Positions 11,064 to 26,267 of a stretch of 64,000 nt of DNA are shown here, in pieces (the first letter of the stretch is position 1; every line of letters begins with the position of its first letter). Position numbers and translations under genes: made by a program. The notes beneath the pieces were generated by a model, which saw nothing but the letters and a program-made list of their open reading frames with translations, was not told where the DNA came from and ran no database searches. Source of the DNA: Mucilaginibacter tundrae (GTDB taxonomy: Bacteria > Bacteroidota > Bacteroidia > Sphingobacteriales > Sphingobacteriaceae); the NCBI RefSeq assembly GCF_013408825.1, contig NZ_JACCBZ010000002.1, positions 124,001 to 188,000 on the forward strand. The letters are read 5' to 3'.

Positions 11064-12155
11064 TTATTGATAAACCTTAACGATAAACACATAGTTGTTC
11101 AGCTTTTTAACTTGCTGAACTCTTGTTAATCCTGCTAAAGTATTTTTAGTATTCAGATTGATTCTTTTAGTTAATGAATCGGCGGGGATGTTATGAATAG
11201 CACTTAGCAAATAGCTTGATTTTACCGCGAAGTGAACTCCTTCCAACTGGGTTTGTTTTGCCTGTATAATACCTACAACGTTTCCTCTGCTATCCATTAG
11301 TGGGCTACCGCTGTTACCGGCATTAATCGGGATAGAGATCTGATAATCTAAACTATCGCCATTTAAACCAACAGCTGATGTTACCTTGCCTTCGTCAAAG
11401 TGAGGTGCATCCTGCGGATAACCGTAGGTGTAAACACTTTCAGCCAAATCGCTCTCAGCCTTTTTAATGGTATAAGGGATAGTCCCCAAGTTTCTGAATG
11501 AGGTATCAACAATTTTTAAGATAGCGATATCATTTTGAGGTTCGGTATATAAAACTTTCGCTTTAAATGATTTACCGGCGCCATTTTGCACATAAACAGA
11601 ATCAGCGCCATTAATTACGTGGTAATTTGTAGCAATTAACCCGTTTGAGGTAATGGCGAATCCTGTGCCTCTAAACCTTTCGGTATTATTAAACCTTTCA
11701 GCCCTGCCGTTTTGTGTAAGCTTTTGATTTATTTTATCTGTTTTATTTTTAAGATTTCCTACTTCACGGCGCAACTGGATGTATTGCGAATCCTGGTCGG
11801 TCATTTTACCGGTTAGAAACATTACACTTAAAAAAGCAAATATGGCAACCGATGCAGCTACTGATATTTTTGAATGATGGTTACGCCATAACTGTACAAT
11901 CCACGATGGGTGAACCATCAGTTCATCCGTAAGGGTATGCACATCAATCTCATCGTGAATAGCATTCAAACGATTCTCCAACGCCAGGCGGTCGCTATAT
12001 TGTTTCAATAGCCTGGTAAAATCCTGGTGCTCGTTAATTTTAGCATCGATAGCAGTATTTTCCTTACGAAGCAATTCAAACTGCTTTATCTCTTCCGGGC
12101 TCATTTCGCCGTTCAGGTAACGTTCAATCTCTTCTTGTAATTTATACTCGTTCAT
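11064..12155 (-). CDS. anti-sigma-like / HtrA-type serine protease fusion
   Basis: 363 residues. Layout: a cytoplasmic helical N-terminus (about 1-95, starting MNEYKLQEEIERYLNGEMSP) of the kind seen in Bacteroidota anti-sigma factors, one membrane helix (about 97-116, ISVAASVAIFAFLSVMFLTG), a short coiled coil (about 124-148) and a trypsin/HtrA-like domain (about 160-325). The catalytic triad is intact: His179 in IATNYHVI, Asp209 in PQNDIAIL and Ser282 in INAGNSGSPL. There is no PDZ domain and no zinc-finger anti-sigma motif. The gene lies 10 bases after the ECF sigma gene in one operon. Inference: it holds the sigma factor at the membrane and carries its own periplasmic protease or sensor. 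Confidence 0.85.
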   Translation of the reverse strand: MNEYKLQEEIERYLNGEMSPEEIKQFELLRKENTAIDAKINEHQDFTRLLKQYSDRLALENRLNAIHDEIDVHTLTDELMVHPSWIVQLWRNHHSKISVAASVAIFAFLSVMFLTGKMTDQDSQYIQLRREVGNLKNKTDKINQKLTQNGRAERFNNTERFRGTGFAITSNGLIATNYHVINGADSVYVQNGAGKSFKAKVLYTEPQNDIAILKIVDTSFRNLGTIPYTIKKAESDLAESVYTYGYPQDAPHFDEGKVTSAVGLNGDSLDYQISIPINAGNSGSPLMDSRGNVVGIIQAKQTQLEGVHFAVKSSYLLSAIHNIPADSLTKRINLNTKNTLAGLTRVQQVKKLNNYVFIVKVYQ

Positions 12156-12165
12156 TTCGCCTCTC

Positions 12166-12735
12166 CTATTTCTGCTGAAAAAATAATTTTTTCAGCCTTT
12201 GCAAACATTTATATTTTTGCGTTTTCGCATTATCAGCATTGGTGTAACCAAACCTTTCGCATATATCCTGCATGGATAGGTTGTGGATATAAAAATCCTC
12301 CATTATAGTTTTGCAGGGTTCGCCTAATAATTGGAGCGCACTCTCCATTTTACTAAACTGTATATCCATGTCGCCTTGTTTTTCCAAATCATCCTCAACA
12401 TGCATATGCTCCTGAAAATCCCTTATATCCCCTCCAAACCTACTCATATGGCTCAACCTTTTAAGCCAAAGCCTCCTGCAGATGGAATAAATAAAGGTTT
12501 TAAGCTTACTGCTCAGCTCAAAATCACCGGCCTTAATTTTATTATACAGTATAATAACGGCCTCCTGGTAAATATCCTTGGCATCATCAGTGGTGCCGTT
12601 ATTGTTTATTATTAGCTGTAAAATCATCGGGAAGTAAGCAAGGTACATGCGCTTTAAAACACTTTCCGAGTTATTAAGTATGCCTAATATAACTTCACTA
12701 TCCGTTGGTATTGAATCTTTTAATTCCTTATTCAC
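12166..12735 (-). CDS. ECF-type RNA polymerase sigma factor
   Basis: 189 residues. Region 2 spans about 20-95 (DAKDIYQEAVIILYNKI, then LKTFIYSICRRLWLKRL) and region 4 about 125-185 (LLGEPCKTIMEDFYIHNLSM, DICERFGYTNADNAKTQKYK). The start read here is GTG at 12735; the next in-frame Met is too far into region 2. It is the first gene of the operon with the anti-sigma/protease, and its own promoter matches those of three neighbouring lipoprotein genes, indicating autoregulation. Confidence 0.93.
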   Translation of the reverse strand: MNKELKDSIPTDSEVILGILNNSESVLKRMYLAYFPMILQLIINNNGTTDDAKDIYQEAVIILYNKIKAGDFELSSKLKTFIYSICRRLWLKRLSHMSRFGGDIRDFQEHMHVEDDLEKQGDMDIQFSKMESALQLLGEPCKTIMEDFYIHNLSMQDICERFGYTNADNAKTQKYKCLQRLKKLFFQQK

Positions 12736-12748
12736 CTGATATTACTAC

Positions 12749-12776
12749 TTAATACAATTTATATGAAATGGTAACC
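12749..12776 (-). promoter_or_regulatory. ECF-type promoter of the sigma/anti-sigma operon (copy A)
   Basis: On the minus strand GGTTAC (12776-12771), 17 bases, then ATTAA (12753-12749), within the longer GTATTAAG. It lies 13 bases before the GTG start, so the leader would be very short. Confidence 0.8.
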
Positions 12777-12810
12777 CTGTTTTTAAAAAAAAACTAATTT
12801 ATTAAAATAA

Positions 12811-12838
12811 GGTTACCTTTTTGAAAAATGGGCATTAA
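12811..12838 (+). promoter_or_regulatory. ECF-type promoter of lipoprotein 1 (copy B)
   Basis: GGTTAC at 12811-12816, a 17-base spacer, ATTAA at 12834-12838. The -35-like box faces that of the divergent sigma operon across 34 bases. Confidence 0.8.
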
Positions 12839-12866
12839 TGCAAAGTAACACTTAAAAATAAACATC

Positions 12867-13064
12867 ATGAAAAACATTCTTAAAACAACATTAGTAGCTG
12901 TAACTGTATTAACATTTGCTGCTTGCGGTACTAAAAAAGCAGGTTCAGGTGTTGATTCAACTACTGTAAAAGTTGATTCAACCAGCAAAACAACTGTTGA
13001 CAGCACTAAAAAAGACACTGTGAAAGTTGATACAACTAAAAAGGATACAACTAAAAAAATGTAA
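12867..13064 (+). CDS. small Lys/Thr/Asp-rich lipoprotein 1
   Basis: 65 residues. Lipoprotein signal MKNILKTTLVAVTVLTFAAC with the lipidated Cys at position 20. The mature tail is low-complexity with VDST and KDT units (VKVDSTSKTTVDSTKKDT) and ends in KKM. No globular domain is visible. It is one of three tandem relatives, each with its own copy of the GGTTAC-N17-ATTAA promoter, which points to control by the adjacent ECF sigma factor. A long terminator-like hairpin follows. The role is unknown; an envelope-stress product is inferred. Confidence 0.85.
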   Translation: MKNILKTTLVAVTVLTFAACGTKKAGSGVDSTTVKVDSTSKTTVDSTKKDTVKVDTTKKDTTKKM

Positions 13065-13070
13065 TTATTT

Positions 13071-13106
13071 AATCAGGCAGTGTAATACAAATTACACTGC
13101 CTGATT
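13071..13106 (+). terminator. perfect 16-bp hairpin after lipoprotein 1
   Basis: AATCAGGCAGTGTAAT, loop ACAA, ATTACACTGCCTGATT. Only a weak T tract follows, so it may protect the mRNA end rather than act as a strict terminator. Confidence 0.7.
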
Positions 13107-13146
13107 GCTTATTTAACTGCCTTTCAGATATTTATTCAGGCTGATG

Positions 13147-13174
13147 GGTTACTTTTTATCAATTACTGTATTAA
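13147..13174 (+). promoter_or_regulatory. ECF-type promoter of lipoprotein 2 (copy C)
   Basis: GGTTAC at 13147-13152, a 17-base spacer, ATTAA at 13170-13174 within GTATTAAG; 26 bases before the ATG. Confidence 0.8.
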
Positions 13175-13200
13175 GATTATAAATCTATAAAAACATAACC

Positions 13201-13440
13201 ATGAAAAACTCATTTAAAATCGCGGCATTAGCATTAGTAGTTTCAATTTCAGTAGCAGCGTGCGGCGGTGCTAAAAAATCTGACGGAAGCGACAGTTCAA
13301 AAACTGACAGCGCTAAGGTAGACTCAACAAAAATTGTTAAGGATACTCTTAAAAACGATACTACCATTAAAAACGACAGCACCCATAAAGATACTACCGT
13401 TAAAACTGTTACTAAAACAACAGAAACTAAAAAGAAATAA
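13201..13440 (+). CDS. small Lys/Thr/Asp-rich lipoprotein 2
   Basis: 79 residues. Signal MKNSFKIAALALVVSISVAAC with the Cys at position 21, then GGAKKSDGSDSSK and repeated DST/KDT units (KVDSTKIVKDTLKNDTT), ending ETKKK. Composition matches lipoproteins 1 and 3, so the three form a local paralogous set. There is no folded domain. Transcription from its own ECF-type promoter is inferred from the shared motif. Confidence 0.85.
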   Translation: MKNSFKIAALALVVSISVAACGGAKKSDGSDSSKTDSAKVDSTKIVKDTLKNDTTIKNDSTHKDTTVKTVTKTTETKKK

Positions 13441-13473
13441 TAACACCCTGATTATTAGTTTTTTTATAATTTA

Positions 13474-13518
13474 AAAAGGTGATCCATGTTTTTTTTTCAA
13501 AAACATGGGTTACCTTTT
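13474..13518. repeat. hairpin overlapping promoter copy D
   Basis: AAAAGGTGATCCATGTTTTT pairs, with two mismatches, to AAAAACATGGGTTACCTTTT. The right arm contains the GGTTAC box of the next promoter, so one element may end lipoprotein 2 transcription and hold the next -35. Confidence 0.6.
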
Positions 13519-13535
13519 GTCATTTTAGGTATTAA
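13508..13535 (+). promoter_or_regulatory. ECF-type promoter of lipoprotein 3 (copy D)
   Basis: GGTTAC at 13508-13513, a 17-base spacer, ATTAA at 13531-13535 within GTATTAAT; 34 bases before the ATG. Confidence 0.8.
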
Positions 13536-13569: not shown

Positions 13570-13797
13570 ATGAAAAATTCAATCAAAGTTAGCGTATTAG
13601 CTTTAGCTATCGCTTGTTCTTTCGCAGCTTGCAAAAGCAAATCTTCTTCAGCTTCAGCTGATTCTACTAAAATGGCTGATTCAGCTAAAGCAGCAGATTC
13701 AACTAAAATGGCTGATTCTTCTAAAATGAAAGCTGACACTGGTAAAATGAAAGCTGATTCATCTAAAATGACTAAAGACACAACTAAAAAAATGTAA
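13570..13797 (+). CDS. small Lys/Ser/Asp-rich lipoprotein 3
   Basis: 75 residues. Signal MKNSIKVSVLALAIACSFAAC with the lipidated Cys at position 21, then KSKSSSASADST and a regular repeat of about 7-8 residues (DSTKMADSAKAADSTKMADS, then KMKADTGKMKADSSK), ending TTKKM. The periodic Lys/Ala/Asp pattern could form an extended or helical rod, which is speculative. It is the third member of the ECF-controlled lipoprotein set. A strong bidirectional terminator follows. Confidence 0.85.
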   Translation: MKNSIKVSVLALAIACSFAACKSKSSSASADSTKMADSAKAADSTKMADSSKMKADTGKMKADSSKMTKDTTKKM

Positions 13798-13871: not shown

Positions 13872-14042
13872 TTATGATTTTCCGCCTCTGAACAGTGATA
13901 TTATCCAAATAATAATCGCGATAACTATAACTACTGCAATAACACCTACTACGGCGCCTGCTTTAAAAATACCACCAATTACGGCGCAGCTGCTCATGGT
14001 CATTACAACAAGGGCCAACATTAGTAAACTTAGATTTTTCAT
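13872..14042 (-). CDS. very small membrane lipoprotein
   Basis: 56 residues from the ATG at 14042; an upstream in-frame ATG at 14081 would add 13 residues that spoil the signal peptide. The signal MKNLSLLMLALVVMTMSSC gives a lipidated Cys at position 19. A long hydrophobic stretch follows (VGVIAVVIVIAIIIWIISLF), then a basic end RGGKS. Lipid anchor plus transmembrane segment is unusual for so short a protein. Its upstream region lacks the GGTTAC-N17-ATTAA motif of the neighbouring lipoproteins. Function unknown. Confidence 0.7.
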   Translation of the reverse strand: MKNLSLLMLALVVMTMSSCAVIGGIFKAGAVVGVIAVVIVIAIIIWIISLFRGGKS

Positions 14043-14135
14043 GATAAATAGTTTTATGATTGATTTTATAAATTTATACAATAACTATACCTGTTTATAA
14101 AACAGATAAGTATTTTTACCGCCTACTTATTTACC

Positions 14136-16905: not shown

Positions 16906-17811
16906 TTAGCTAGTTGGTTTTGTAAATGCCGGCACTAATATAGCAAGTACTTCAGCCATTGTTAACGGCTCATCAAATGCAGCGGTTGCAGCAGCCACTG
17001 TTGTTGTACTACTTGTTGCGCTTGGCAAATTAAGAATATTAACACCGCCCTGTACGGTAGTATTCTCCGGAGTAGCACCACCGTAGTTTGCATTTACTGC
17101 TGCAACGCCGGTATCATTACTTGCAGCGCCAGAAGTATCGGTACTTCCTGATGCGGCACTGGTAATCCAAGGCAATACAGTTGCACCATATTTGCTTGAA
17201 CGTAAATAACGAATGGCAGATGCGTGCCTTGCTTCTACCGCGTGTATATCAAGCGCTGCAGTTAAGTAAGTTTGGTTACCTAATAAATTAGGGGCTTGGC
17301 CTTTGTATGCACGCACACCTGTGTCTTCAAATGTTTCGGCAACAGCTAAAAATGTTTGATAGTTTGTAAAAACACCGGTAAATGGACCAGCCATTGAACC
17401 TGAGCCACCAGTAAAATCCAAGTACACAAAGTCAGACGCGGTAACTGGGGTACCACCGGCAGCACTGATCGCACTTGTTAAAAACGCAACGTGTTTGTTT
17501 TCGTCAGCTTGAATTTGAGCGATGTATGAGGTATCGGTTACTAATCCAGAGGCATTCATGCCGTTATTATAAAATGTCGCTTCTAATAATTCAAGTGTCA
17601 AAGCAAAGTTTAATACACTAATTACACTTGCTGATGCTGTTTGTCCGTAGGCTTTTTTAAATAAATTACCTAAAGCGAATGGTATTGCAGCCACGGCTAC
17701 TTTAGAGCCAAAGCTTGTAATATTCTTTATCGCGTCGCGACGAGGACTGATCCGGTCATTAAATTCCGGGTCGATTTTCTCTATTTCTTCTACTATACTA
17801 AATAAATTCAT
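16906..17811 (-). CDS. exported ferritin-like domain protein (second of pair)
   Basis: 301 residues. The N-terminus carries a twin-arginine-like motif SPRRDAIKNITSFG and a hydrophobic core ending around KAYGQT. The four-helix ferritin-like domain shows metal-ligand-type positions LELLEATFYNN, DENKHVAFL, AETFEDTGVRAY and DIHAVEARHASAI. The C-terminal part (about 215-301) is Thr/Ala-rich and low-complexity. It is the downstream member of a two-gene operon, 21 bases after its relative. Metal binding is plausible; redox function is unproven. Confidence 0.83.
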   Translation of the reverse strand: MNLFSIVEEIEKIDPEFNDRISPRRDAIKNITSFGSKVAVAAIPFALGNLFKKAYGQTASASVISVLNFALTLELLEATFYNNGMNASGLVTDTSYIAQIQADENKHVAFLTSAISAAGGTPVTASDFVYLDFTGGSGSMAGPFTGVFTNYQTFLAVAETFEDTGVRAYKGQAPNLLGNQTYLTAALDIHAVEARHASAIRYLRSSKYGATVLPWITSAASGSTDTSGAASNDTGVAAVNANYGGATPENTTVQGGVNILNLPSATSSTTTVAAATAAFDEPLTMAEVLAILVPAFTKPTS

Positions 17812-17832
17812 GATCGTAATTGTTAAAAGTGA

Positions 17833-18519
17833 TTAACTGAAACTGTTAGCTGAAACTTTGGTTTTTAAATAAGCATTGGCTCCTGCTAATACTACGCTTG
17901 GTTTATTGCTGATATTTAAACCATTGGTATCAACCTGATCAGATGATACGAAGTTACCCTGGGTTATCAGATTGCCGATCAAAGCCGCGTGCCTTGCCTC
18001 TACCGAAACGATACTACCCGCAATAGATAAATAGGCAGCATTTTGGATGTTATAGGCAATACCATCATAAGCAGTTACACCTAAGTCTTCAAAAGCTTTA
18101 GCAACTCCTAATACTGATGTTCTGCTTGTGAAATCAATTTTACTAAAATCAGGGGTTAATCCTTTTATGGCGCTGGTGCCTAACGCTGCTTTAAAAAATT
18201 CACGGTGGCATACCTCATGGTCACGGATATCGGTCAAATATGCTAATTCTATTGACGGCATATTGGCGTAAGGGGTTGCGATTACCTGTAAATAAAATGC
18301 AGCTTCCAATTGTTCAAGTGCATAGGCAAAATTTAATATACCTATATCACCGCTGCCCACATCCGTCACACCCGCTGTAGGGGCAACATTATGATCTTTA
18401 TGGCATGAGGATGCAACTGATAGCAAGCCAATGCCGGCCACTCCTGCACCTGCATAACGTAAAAACGACCTGCGGGCCATGTTTACATTAACATTAGTTA
18501 AATCTGTTTCTGTTTTCAT
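17833..18519 (-). CDS. exported ferritin-like lipoprotein (first of pair)
   Basis: 228 residues. Tat motif ARRSFLRYAGAG followed by a hydrophobic stretch and lipobox LLSVASSC, so probably a Tat-exported lipoprotein. Ferritin-like ligands: LEQLEAAFYLQV, DHEVCHREFFKAA, AKAFEDLGVTAYDG and SVEARHAALIG, parallel to the next gene. It is the promoter-proximal gene of the pair. The four EARH/ExxH-type positions suggest a di-metal site assembled before export, which would explain Tat use; this is inference. Confidence 0.85.
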   Translation of the reverse strand: MKTETDLTNVNVNMARRSFLRYAGAGVAGIGLLSVASSCHKDHNVAPTAGVTDVGSGDIGILNFAYALEQLEAAFYLQVIATPYANMPSIELAYLTDIRDHEVCHREFFKAALGTSAIKGLTPDFSKIDFTSRTSVLGVAKAFEDLGVTAYDGIAYNIQNAAYLSIAGSIVSVEARHAALIGNLITQGNFVSSDQVDTNGLNISNKPSVVLAGANAYLKTKVSANSFS

Positions 18520-25477: not shown

Positions 25478-25750
25478 TTAATGCTTTTTAAAGACATTGG
25501 CGATGCGCTGCATAAACCCGCGATGTTTTGGCGCGGTGGCTAATTGTTGTTGCACAGCAATGATCTCATCCTTTATTTTTTGGCGACCGTATTGCCGGAT
25601 CATTGTATAGGTGTTTTGCTGATGATAGACATTGTCTTTCAAATCATTATTCAGCAATAAATTTGCCTCAAATAAAAGTTTATCGCCGGGGAGTATGTGG
25701 CCCAACAGATAATCGTCGATAGCTTTGATATTATTCAATGAAGTCCGCAT
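25478..25750 (-). CDS. small anti-sigma-like protein without membrane segment
   Basis: 90 residues. The N-terminal pattern NNIKAIDDYLLGHILPGDKL followed by LLLNNDLKDNVYHQQNTY resembles the cytoplasmic head of Bacteroidota anti-sigma factors (helical, with a 'loaded membrane of the E/L-x-G' type pattern). It has no transmembrane helix, zinc motif or periplasmic domain. It overlaps the end of the ECF sigma gene by 20 bases, so translation is coupled. An anti-sigma or sigma-partner role is inferred from position and pattern. Confidence 0.75.
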   Translation of the reverse strand: MRTSLNNIKAIDDYLLGHILPGDKLLFEANLLLNNDLKDNVYHQQNTYTMIRQYGRQKIKDEIIAVQQQLATAPKHRGFMQRIANVFKKH

Positions 25751-26267
25751 AGCTTAATGATTTTTGTTTGACGGTTTCCCTTACTTTCTCCAGGCATTTA
25801 TACTTTGCTACACTTACGGAATGTGTGCCAGTGTAACCAAACAGCGTTGCGACATCACTTATCGGCAAATGATCGTAATAATAAGCTTTAAGCAATTCCA
25901 TGCATTTTTTCCCAGCTGTACTCAGGTAATGCAGTAACTTGTTAGCGGCGAGGTGTTCATCGGGAACAACCGCCATGTCAAAATTATTTAAGGGTTCGTT
26001 CTTACTGATTGTTTTATAATGTTGTAGCCATAATCTTTTCGCAATACCTAGTAGATAGGCTTTCTCGTTTACGATGATTTGAGGCTGCGCCGACGACATT
26101 TTTTCGTAATATATAACCAGTGTATCCTGAAAAACATCCTGTGCTTCTTCAAGACTGCCGCCCATGCGGGCTACATAACGCGCAAAGCCAGGAAATGACT
26201 TTTTGTAAAGCGCCAGGAAGGATGCTTCACGTTGTTCAATTGTTGATAATTTGTTCTTTTCCATCAT
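25731..26267 (-). CDS. second ECF-type RNA polymerase sigma factor
   Basis: 178 residues. Region 2: FARYVARMGGSLEEAQDVFQ, DTLVIYYEKM and KAYLLGIAKRLWLQHYK. Region 4: GKKCMELLKAYYYDHLPISD and VATLFGYTGTHSVSVAKYK. It is similar in type to the sigma factor at 12166 but clearly different in sequence. It heads an operon with a soluble anti-sigma-like gene and a SnoaL-like gene. Its upstream region has GGGTGAT and ATTAC boxes but not the GGTTAC-N17-ATTAA motif of the first regulon. Confidence 0.92.
   Translation of the reverse strand: MMEKNKLSTIEQREASFLALYKKSFPGFARYVARMGGSLEEAQDVFQDTLVIYYEKMSSAQPQIIVNEKAYLLGIAKRLWLQHYKTISKNEPLNNFDMAVVPDEHLAANKLLHYLSTAGKKCMELLKAYYYDHLPISDVATLFGYTGTHSVSVAKYKCLEKVRETVKQKSLSYADFIE

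Follow-up and report, generated by a model that had tools for sequence, protein, structure and literature searches.

Envelope stress in Escherichia coli is handled by the RpoE-RseA-DegS pathway, which joins an ECF sigma factor, a single-pass inner-membrane regulator and the periplasmic DegS. Bacteroidota have pairs of ECF and anti-sigma factors, such as those of the FecI/FecR type. The parts of a study on Flavobacterium psychrophilum SM6 that were considered here describe ECF-type promoters, one of them ahead of a gene pair for an ECF factor and an anti-sigma factor (PMC9723704). In the considered sections of a survey, class I anti-sigma domains were encoded beside just 6% of the Bacteroidetes ECF factors as opposed to 32% on average, and for this low figure the authors suggested that synteny is broken or that control is exerted in other ways (PMC7406223).

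The locus analyzed here was found in a stretch of 64,000 bases, termed the window. Like the E. coli pathway, it combines an ECF sigma factor, a predicted single-pass regulator and a DegS-like protease domain with an intact catalytic triad. Unlike that pathway, the predicted regulator and the protease are one polypeptide instead of separate proteins, the PDZ domain that is the outer-membrane-protein sensor in DegS is absent, the putative regulon comprises tiny lipoproteins where RpoE controls outer-membrane assembly factors, and the -35 element reads GGTTAC instead of the GGAACTT of RpoE. Adjacent genes for sigma factor and regulator, an N-terminal regulator domain and one membrane helix are shared with FecI/FecR systems, but the C-terminal half of the regulator is a protease and no FecR domain was found in it with Pfam at E 0.1, and assignment to this type was rejected on the latter ground. 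The promoters of SM6 resemble the present ones in being of ECF type and in serving an ECF/anti-sigma pair; in the parts considered, a CGT box is conserved in their -10 region, unlike the motif described here, and type IX secretion and band-7 genes are among the targets listed, which also differs from this locus (PMC9723704). A literature search by title and start of abstract, covering few subscription journals, returned no description of a sigma/protease fusion or of the motif. A group for this sigma factor may already exist in the main ECF reclassification. What is new here is the predicted inhibitor/protease fusion, coupled to an output of sequon-rich lipoproteins.

A preliminary description had reported four copies of the pattern GGTTAC-N17-ATTAA, and a search of all 64,000 bases without mismatches returned exactly these four and no further copy, compared with 0.067 expected by chance from the base composition of a 64-kb window. 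The predicted, autoregulatory promoter of the sigma operon is located on the minus strand (12749..12776), 13 nt upstream of the sigma GTG, and the same kind of site precedes the sigma gene in relatives. The predicted promoters of small lipoproteins 1, 2 and 3 are located on the plus strand (12811..12838, 13147..13174 and 13508..13535), 28, 26 and 34 nt upstream of the three ATGs. The promoter of lipoprotein 1 is divergent from the sigma promoter, the -35 boxes of both being 34 nt apart by their coordinates, and carries the variant GCATTAA; the other three sites share the extended box GTATTAA, again as described before. Beside these genes, an ORF for a 69-aa membrane- or lipoprotein-like product (13872-14081, minus strand) has no such site, and its family matches were weak and below the cut-off. 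Elsewhere in the window (16906-18519, minus strand), two adjacent ORFs of similar layout have signal-like N-termini and are possibly ferritin-like.

In the whole genome of the same organism (4.83 Mb), the exact pattern yielded 14 matches, compared with 3 for the backward pattern and 5.1 expected by composition. The bare pattern alone is thus just mildly enriched in the genome. The stricter form GGTTAC-N15-GTATTAA had 5 exact matches, namely three window sites, one site on contig C1 (C1:455256) and one in an lgt-like gene; 21 matches were obtained with one mismatch allowed, compared with 14 for the backward form. Extending the spacer of the stricter form by one base left no exact match, and 16 versus 12 backward matches with one mismatch. 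The site on C1, the fifth in this genome, lies 120 nt upstream of the unlinked gene for a 72-aa lipoprotein paralogue. When the genome was queried with lipoprotein 1, 5 matches were detected, i.e. the three window lipoproteins, the C1 lipoprotein and a 158-aa frame that was dropped as unrelated (E 0.127); all 4 lipoprotein paralogues found in the genome carry a site. Re-examination of 13 further matches from the search with the stricter form placed 10 within open frames longer than 100 codons; the other 3 (L223, L225, L233) lie outside such frames, and none of the 13 precedes a lipoprotein of this kind. Of the 14 exact matches to the bare pattern, 12 were inspected, all but those on contigs C9 and C14. 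The ORF around the exact site in the lgt coding region (G000:C5:301096, L008) matches Lgt, the enzyme that modifies lipoproteins, and one Pedobacter locus (L165) has an exact site in what appears by eye to be an lgt frame. Sites within lgt frames are probably coding coincidences.

Conservation of the sites in related genomes, proposed earlier as a check, was examined in the best 80 of 245 loci (the named loci), which represent Mucilaginibacter, Pedobacter, Daejeonella, Solitalea and unclassified bins. Their 938,956 bases contain 247 matches to GGTTAC-N17-ATTAA, compared with 1, 0, 0 and 0 for four patterns with permuted boxes, counts that are not independent events because the compared sequences are kin. 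A site with spacer 17 was found within 200 nt ahead of the sigma gene in 79 of the 80 loci, and a search within 450 nt with spacers of 16 to 18 allowed located one in all 80 (spacer 17 in 79, spacer 18 in 1), which bears out the conservation. The 163 lipoprotein sites had a spacer of 17 in 153 cases, 18 in 9 and 16 in 1. Six more sites fit neither class, although one of them precedes a lipoprotein whose start codon was called differently by the script. Two lipoprotein sites were present in 32 loci, three in 22, one in 20, none in 3, four in 2 and five in 1, with some of the loci truncated by contig ends.

Lipoprotein and sigma sites of the named loci form two promoter subtypes that differ outside the searched boxes, with the consensus (G)GGTTACCTTTT...GTATTAA for the former and GGTTACnATT....AA..GTATTAA for the latter. 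Beyond the searched pattern, GGTTAC is followed by CTTT at 96-100% per position in the 153 lipoprotein sites, and GT precedes ATTAA in all 79 sigma sites with spacer 17. Lipoprotein sites are located a median of 36 nt ahead of the start codon; the first in-frame sigma start codon lies 0-3 nt past ATTAA in 73 of the 80 loci. This distance is too short for an ordinary leader and indicates either a leaderless mRNA or a wrongly annotated start, and judging by known ECF promoters the sigma mRNA from the proximal promoter would have little or no leader. Leaderless transcripts account for 5.5% of the mapped mRNAs in the considered parts of the F. psychrophilum study (PMC9723704). A second, distal site aimed at the sigma gene was identified in 35 of the 80 named loci, in many with spacer 18, and could provide a transcript with a leader. 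In these loci the distal site is located some 70-345 nt further upstream than the proximal one (L116, L119, L124, L172, L176, L183 and others). The lipoprotein promoter nearest to the sigma gene is identical over 28 bases including the spacer, GGTTACCTTTTTACCTTTGCGGCATTAA, in at least 13 Pedobacter-type loci (among the matches listed, L167, L172, L174-L177, L179-L184 and L188). One of these, L175, is titled Flavobacteriaceae bacterium; its copy of the locus is Pedobacter-like and it is possibly mislabelled.

The distribution of the sigma gene was determined in the genus and in the phylum. Within the genus, 147 of 149 genomes match the sigma factor at E 1e-20 or better, and 143 of these matches read as orthologues, with contig-cut pieces counted in; G074, G083, G097 and G136 score at paralogue level only, and this search yielded no match in G067 and G095. 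Among 395 genomes of the phylum, 69 give a match to the sigma profile at E 1e-20, and 29 of them hold an orthologue (at least 199 bits, with the next score, 149, following after a gap). The regulator profile gives 37 matches at E 1e-40. A full-length orthologue of at least 386 bits is present in the same 29 sigma-positive genomes, two of which (G395 and G515) encode regulators that lack the first 38-42 profile positions; the other 8 matches begin at position 113 or later and represent the protease part. By coordinates, regulator and sigma genes are adjoining in all 29 genomes, and GGTTAC-N17/18-ATTAA precedes the sigma gene at every one of the 29 loci. A divergent lipoprotein with an exact site is found at 19 of these loci and not at the other 10. 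In 8 loci the divergent lipoprotein keeps GGTTAC (as GGTTACC in 7 and GGTTACT in 1) with an altered downstream box, e.g. GTATAAA; G504 and G150 have no divergent lipoprotein site at the sigma locus. Both belong to genus g2, in which lipoproteins preceded by sites (with spacer 18 in G150) are encoded at places unlinked to the sigma locus.

Hand counts of GGTTAC-N15-GTATTAA gave 69 matches compared with 6 backward controls in the 29 sigma-positive genomes, 27 of which hold at least one, and 24 matches compared with 59 backward controls in the 366 sigma-negative genomes. The excess of the stricter motif is restricted to the 29 sigma-positive genomes. Intergenic positions account for 17 of the 22 off-locus sites fetched from sigma-positive genomes and for 5 of the 20 fetched (out of 24) from sigma-negative ones. 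Site conservation and this co-occurrence over 395 genomes support the earlier proposal that one sigma factor drives its own operon and the lipoproteins; its extent was underestimated, as the regulon is not confined to the window but would take in the fifth genomic site and, in relatives, sites before other small genes.

Several such genes were recognized. Four genomes of family f2 (L268, L270, L271, L275) have a site 17-29 nt upstream of a gene whose 96-aa product contains a glycogen-binding domain of AMPK type (Pfam run on L271), and a similar protein is encoded downstream in G239 and G445 (L266, L274), where the script placed the site inside an extended frame. Proteins of DUF2459 type follow sites in three genomes (L093, L099 and L101; Pfam run on L093), and several small, seemingly membrane-bound proteins lie downstream of sites in other genomes. 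Eighteen off-locus sites of the genus were hand-picked among the matches listed, with one recurring coding site left out, and 8 of them are located outside any 100-codon frame. In G095 (95% complete), matching sites occur 21-22 nt upstream of two small membrane-protein-like genes, despite the failure of the genus search to detect a sigma orthologue there; the motif may be common to another ECF factor, or the sigma gene may fall into an assembly gap.

The sigma gene (12166..12735, minus strand) encodes 189 aa from a GTG start. Region 2 matches PF04542 (Sigma70_r2, 29.2 bits, cut-off 24) and residues 28-183 match the ECF profile TIGR02937, which spans regions 2 and 4 (54.9 bits, cut-off 42.9); the Pfam search gave no separate match for region 4. 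The preliminary description had left out the operon partner, which starts 10 nt downstream and is next to the sigma gene in each of the 29 sigma-positive genomes. This gene (11064..12155, minus strand) is a single ORF for a predicted anti-sigma/protease fusion of 363 aa (Trypsin_2, 88.4 bits), and the same layout is seen in aligned relatives. An AlphaFold2 model built from 75 sequences reached a mean pLDDT of 83.1, with 48-66 per block over residues 71-130, after an earlier model from 11 sequences had been poor (58.5). Helices 3-15, 20-32, 34-69 and 72-78 make up an N-terminal helical domain (about residues 1-80; 11916..12155), the predicted cytoplasmic anti-sigma part, and are followed by a long helix that spans the membrane stretch, one more helix and the protease fold. 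The predicted single transmembrane helix (about residues 97-115; 11811..11867) is a hydrophobic stretch that falls into model helix 85-115, which is of low confidence. The trypsin/DegS-like protease domain, predicted to be periplasmic, covers about residues 159-321 (11193..11681). Foldseek returned PDZ-less DegS, e.g. 2qf0, as best PDB matches, and Pfam at E 0.1 gave no PDZ match. About 40 residues remain after the protease domain in the model, and a conserved C-terminal tail of the YVFMVKVY type (11064-11190, minus strand) occupies the position of the DegS PDZ domain. The triad H179, D209 and S282 is invariant in 80 of 80 sequences, a set that includes the window member and omits L125, whose contig ends there. 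An anti-phage system was also considered and dropped, as the PADLOC matches start at residue 122 or later and thus reflect the trypsin-like part.

The window holds a second ECF gene (25731-26267), whose reading frame overlaps by 20 nt with that of a 90-aa partner (both within 25478-26267, minus strand) and which has no GGTTAC-N17-ATTAA ahead of it. The partner belongs to a family of 148 proteins at E 1e-5, its own sequence counted; one of 120 listed relatives is named anti-sigma-K factor RskA, most being unnamed or hypothetical. It may be a minimal anti-sigma factor. In a single hhalign comparison the N-terminal domain of the fusion matched this family (96.9%, E 1.4e-10), and direct BLASTP between the 90-aa protein and the domain found nothing. 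Searching 12 N-terminal domains with zf-HC2 gave weak matches in 4, the best with E 0.011 and none reaching the curated cut-off (12.1 bits for the window member, cut-off 22.2), and with the NCBIfam anti-sigma models 1 of the 12 appeared at E 0.11, again with no match above cut-off. Profile kinship to a family of ECF partners with one member named RskA supports an anti-sigma role, short of proof, and we regard this role as reasonably likely. Anti-sigma factor and site-1 protease are predicted to reside in one protein, provided that the N-terminal domain is the anti-sigma part.

The three small lipoproteins are encoded on the plus strand and comprise 65 aa (12867..13064, lipobox FAAC, 6 D(S/T)x sequons), 79 aa (13201..13440, VAAC, 6 sequons) and 75 aa (13570..13797, FAAC, 4 sequons). 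The PG1828 family (NF050142) likewise consists of small lipoproteins, and its profile matches lipoproteins 1 and 2 weakly (28.8 and 23.9 bits, cut-off 50) and gave no match for lipoprotein 3. In the named loci, 149 distinct lipoproteins of 52-93 aa were collected, 134 of them with the cysteine at position 21; the mature chains contain 24% T, 17% K, 13% D, 11% S and 11% A and are nearly free of aromatic residues. The O-glycosylation sequon of Bacteroidota is D(S/T)(A/I/L/V/M/T). It occurs on average 5.3 times per mature chain, compared with 1.1 after shuffling, and at least twice in all 149. Of 956 Asp residues, 914 have Ser or Thr as the next residue, and a permitted third residue comes after this pair in 790 of the 914. 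The sequon density is 11.0 per 100 residues, whereas 51 window proteins of at least 150 aa average 0.38, with 2.37 as the highest value. Short tandem repeats by themselves could raise the sequon count. More distant relatives have a divergent lipoprotein in 18 of 19 loci examined, and 16 of the 18 carry at least two sequons within different repeats, which argues against the copying of one repeat. The lipoproteins are likely to be O-glycosylated and to have their anchor in the outer membrane.

On the sequence evidence, it is highly likely that the window sites are promoters of the linked ECF sigma factor, which would transcribe its own operon and the small lipoproteins from them. That a short A+T-rich pattern recurred by chance is close to inconceivable: the bare pattern does give about 5 chance matches per genome, and most of the other matches examined in the same genome fall within open frames, but the permuted-box controls and the stricter-motif counts in 395 genomes reject this reading. 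GGTTAC could instead be an operator, bound by a transcription factor that switches on housekeeping-sigma promoters, with ATTAA being incidental. It is the stiffer of the two boxes and is kept in the 8 phylum loci with a changed downstream box, yet of the 80 sigma and 163 lipoprotein sites just one departs from a spacing of 17 or 18 even though 16 was allowed, a constancy typical of a promoter and not of an operator. The housekeeping -7 box TAnnTTTG lies near 28 of 157 lipoprotein sites, compared with 19 after one shuffle of each, which lends no support to a housekeeping promoter with an operator and makes this alternative very improbable.

The sites might also be ECF promoters read by a different factor or by several, with the linked sigma gene as merely one target. 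The second ECF gene in the window, a paralogue locus in G197 (L222) with GGTTAC ahead of its own sigma gene, and G095 with its sites and undetected orthologue would fit such a situation, but the motif excess follows this orthologue over the 395 genomes, a site precedes its gene in every one of the 29 loci and the other ECF gene in the window is without one, and this reading is considered quite unlikely. A doubt of another kind concerns the operon partner, which could be a co-controlled envelope protease and no sigma inhibitor even if the link between sigma factor and promoters is correct. Proteins of this family are named S1C family serine protease, serine protease Do and similar in the sources, no curated anti-sigma model reaches its cut-off, and the members from G395 and G515 lack the N-terminal profile positions; the helical N-terminal domain is nevertheless profile-related to the small partner of another ECF gene, and its gene adjoins that of the sigma factor in all 29 genomes. 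A protease-only role appears unlikely, though less so than the other alternatives. The autoregulated ECF regulon is very probably real and somewhat wider than first thought.

For the steps past promoter recognition, from sigma binding and anti-sigma action through signal and cleavage to glycosylation and localization, we infer the following course. From these promoters the sigma factor would transcribe the operon to which it belongs as well as several small lipoprotein genes, and its regulator is most likely the product of the second gene in that operon. The cytoplasmic N-terminal domain of the regulator would bind the sigma factor, one helix would span the inner membrane and the PDZ-less, DegS-like protease would be exposed to the periplasm. 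An envelope signal might activate or derepress the protease, and the regulator would be cleaved by itself, by a neighbouring subunit or by another protease; self-cleavage is conceivable, at slightly worse than even chances. The freed sigma factor would give rise to more sigma factor, more regulator and a burst of lipoproteins, and the output could be a glycan-bearing coat or spacer layer of short Thr/Lys/Asp/Ser-rich lipoproteins. Taken as a whole, an envelope-stress pathway based on one protein, in which a fused anti-sigma factor and site-1 protease frees its own ECF sigma factor to build a mucin-like, heavily O-glycosylated lipoprotein layer, conserved across several families of one class, is put forward tentatively.

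The same switch of sigma factor, sites and lipoproteins appears to occur in many soil Bacteroidota, and the locus is a concrete candidate for the kind of other ECF control mode that has been suggested for this phylum. Its promoters are defined sharply enough for direct testing, and named strains of Mucilaginibacter and Pedobacter carry orthologues. A class of tiny, Ser/Thr-rich lipoproteins would thereby gain a dedicated regulatory circuit. If the proposal is true, a membrane fusion protein would sense trouble at the cell surface, and the answer of the cell would be the production of several tiny, sequon-rich lipoproteins.
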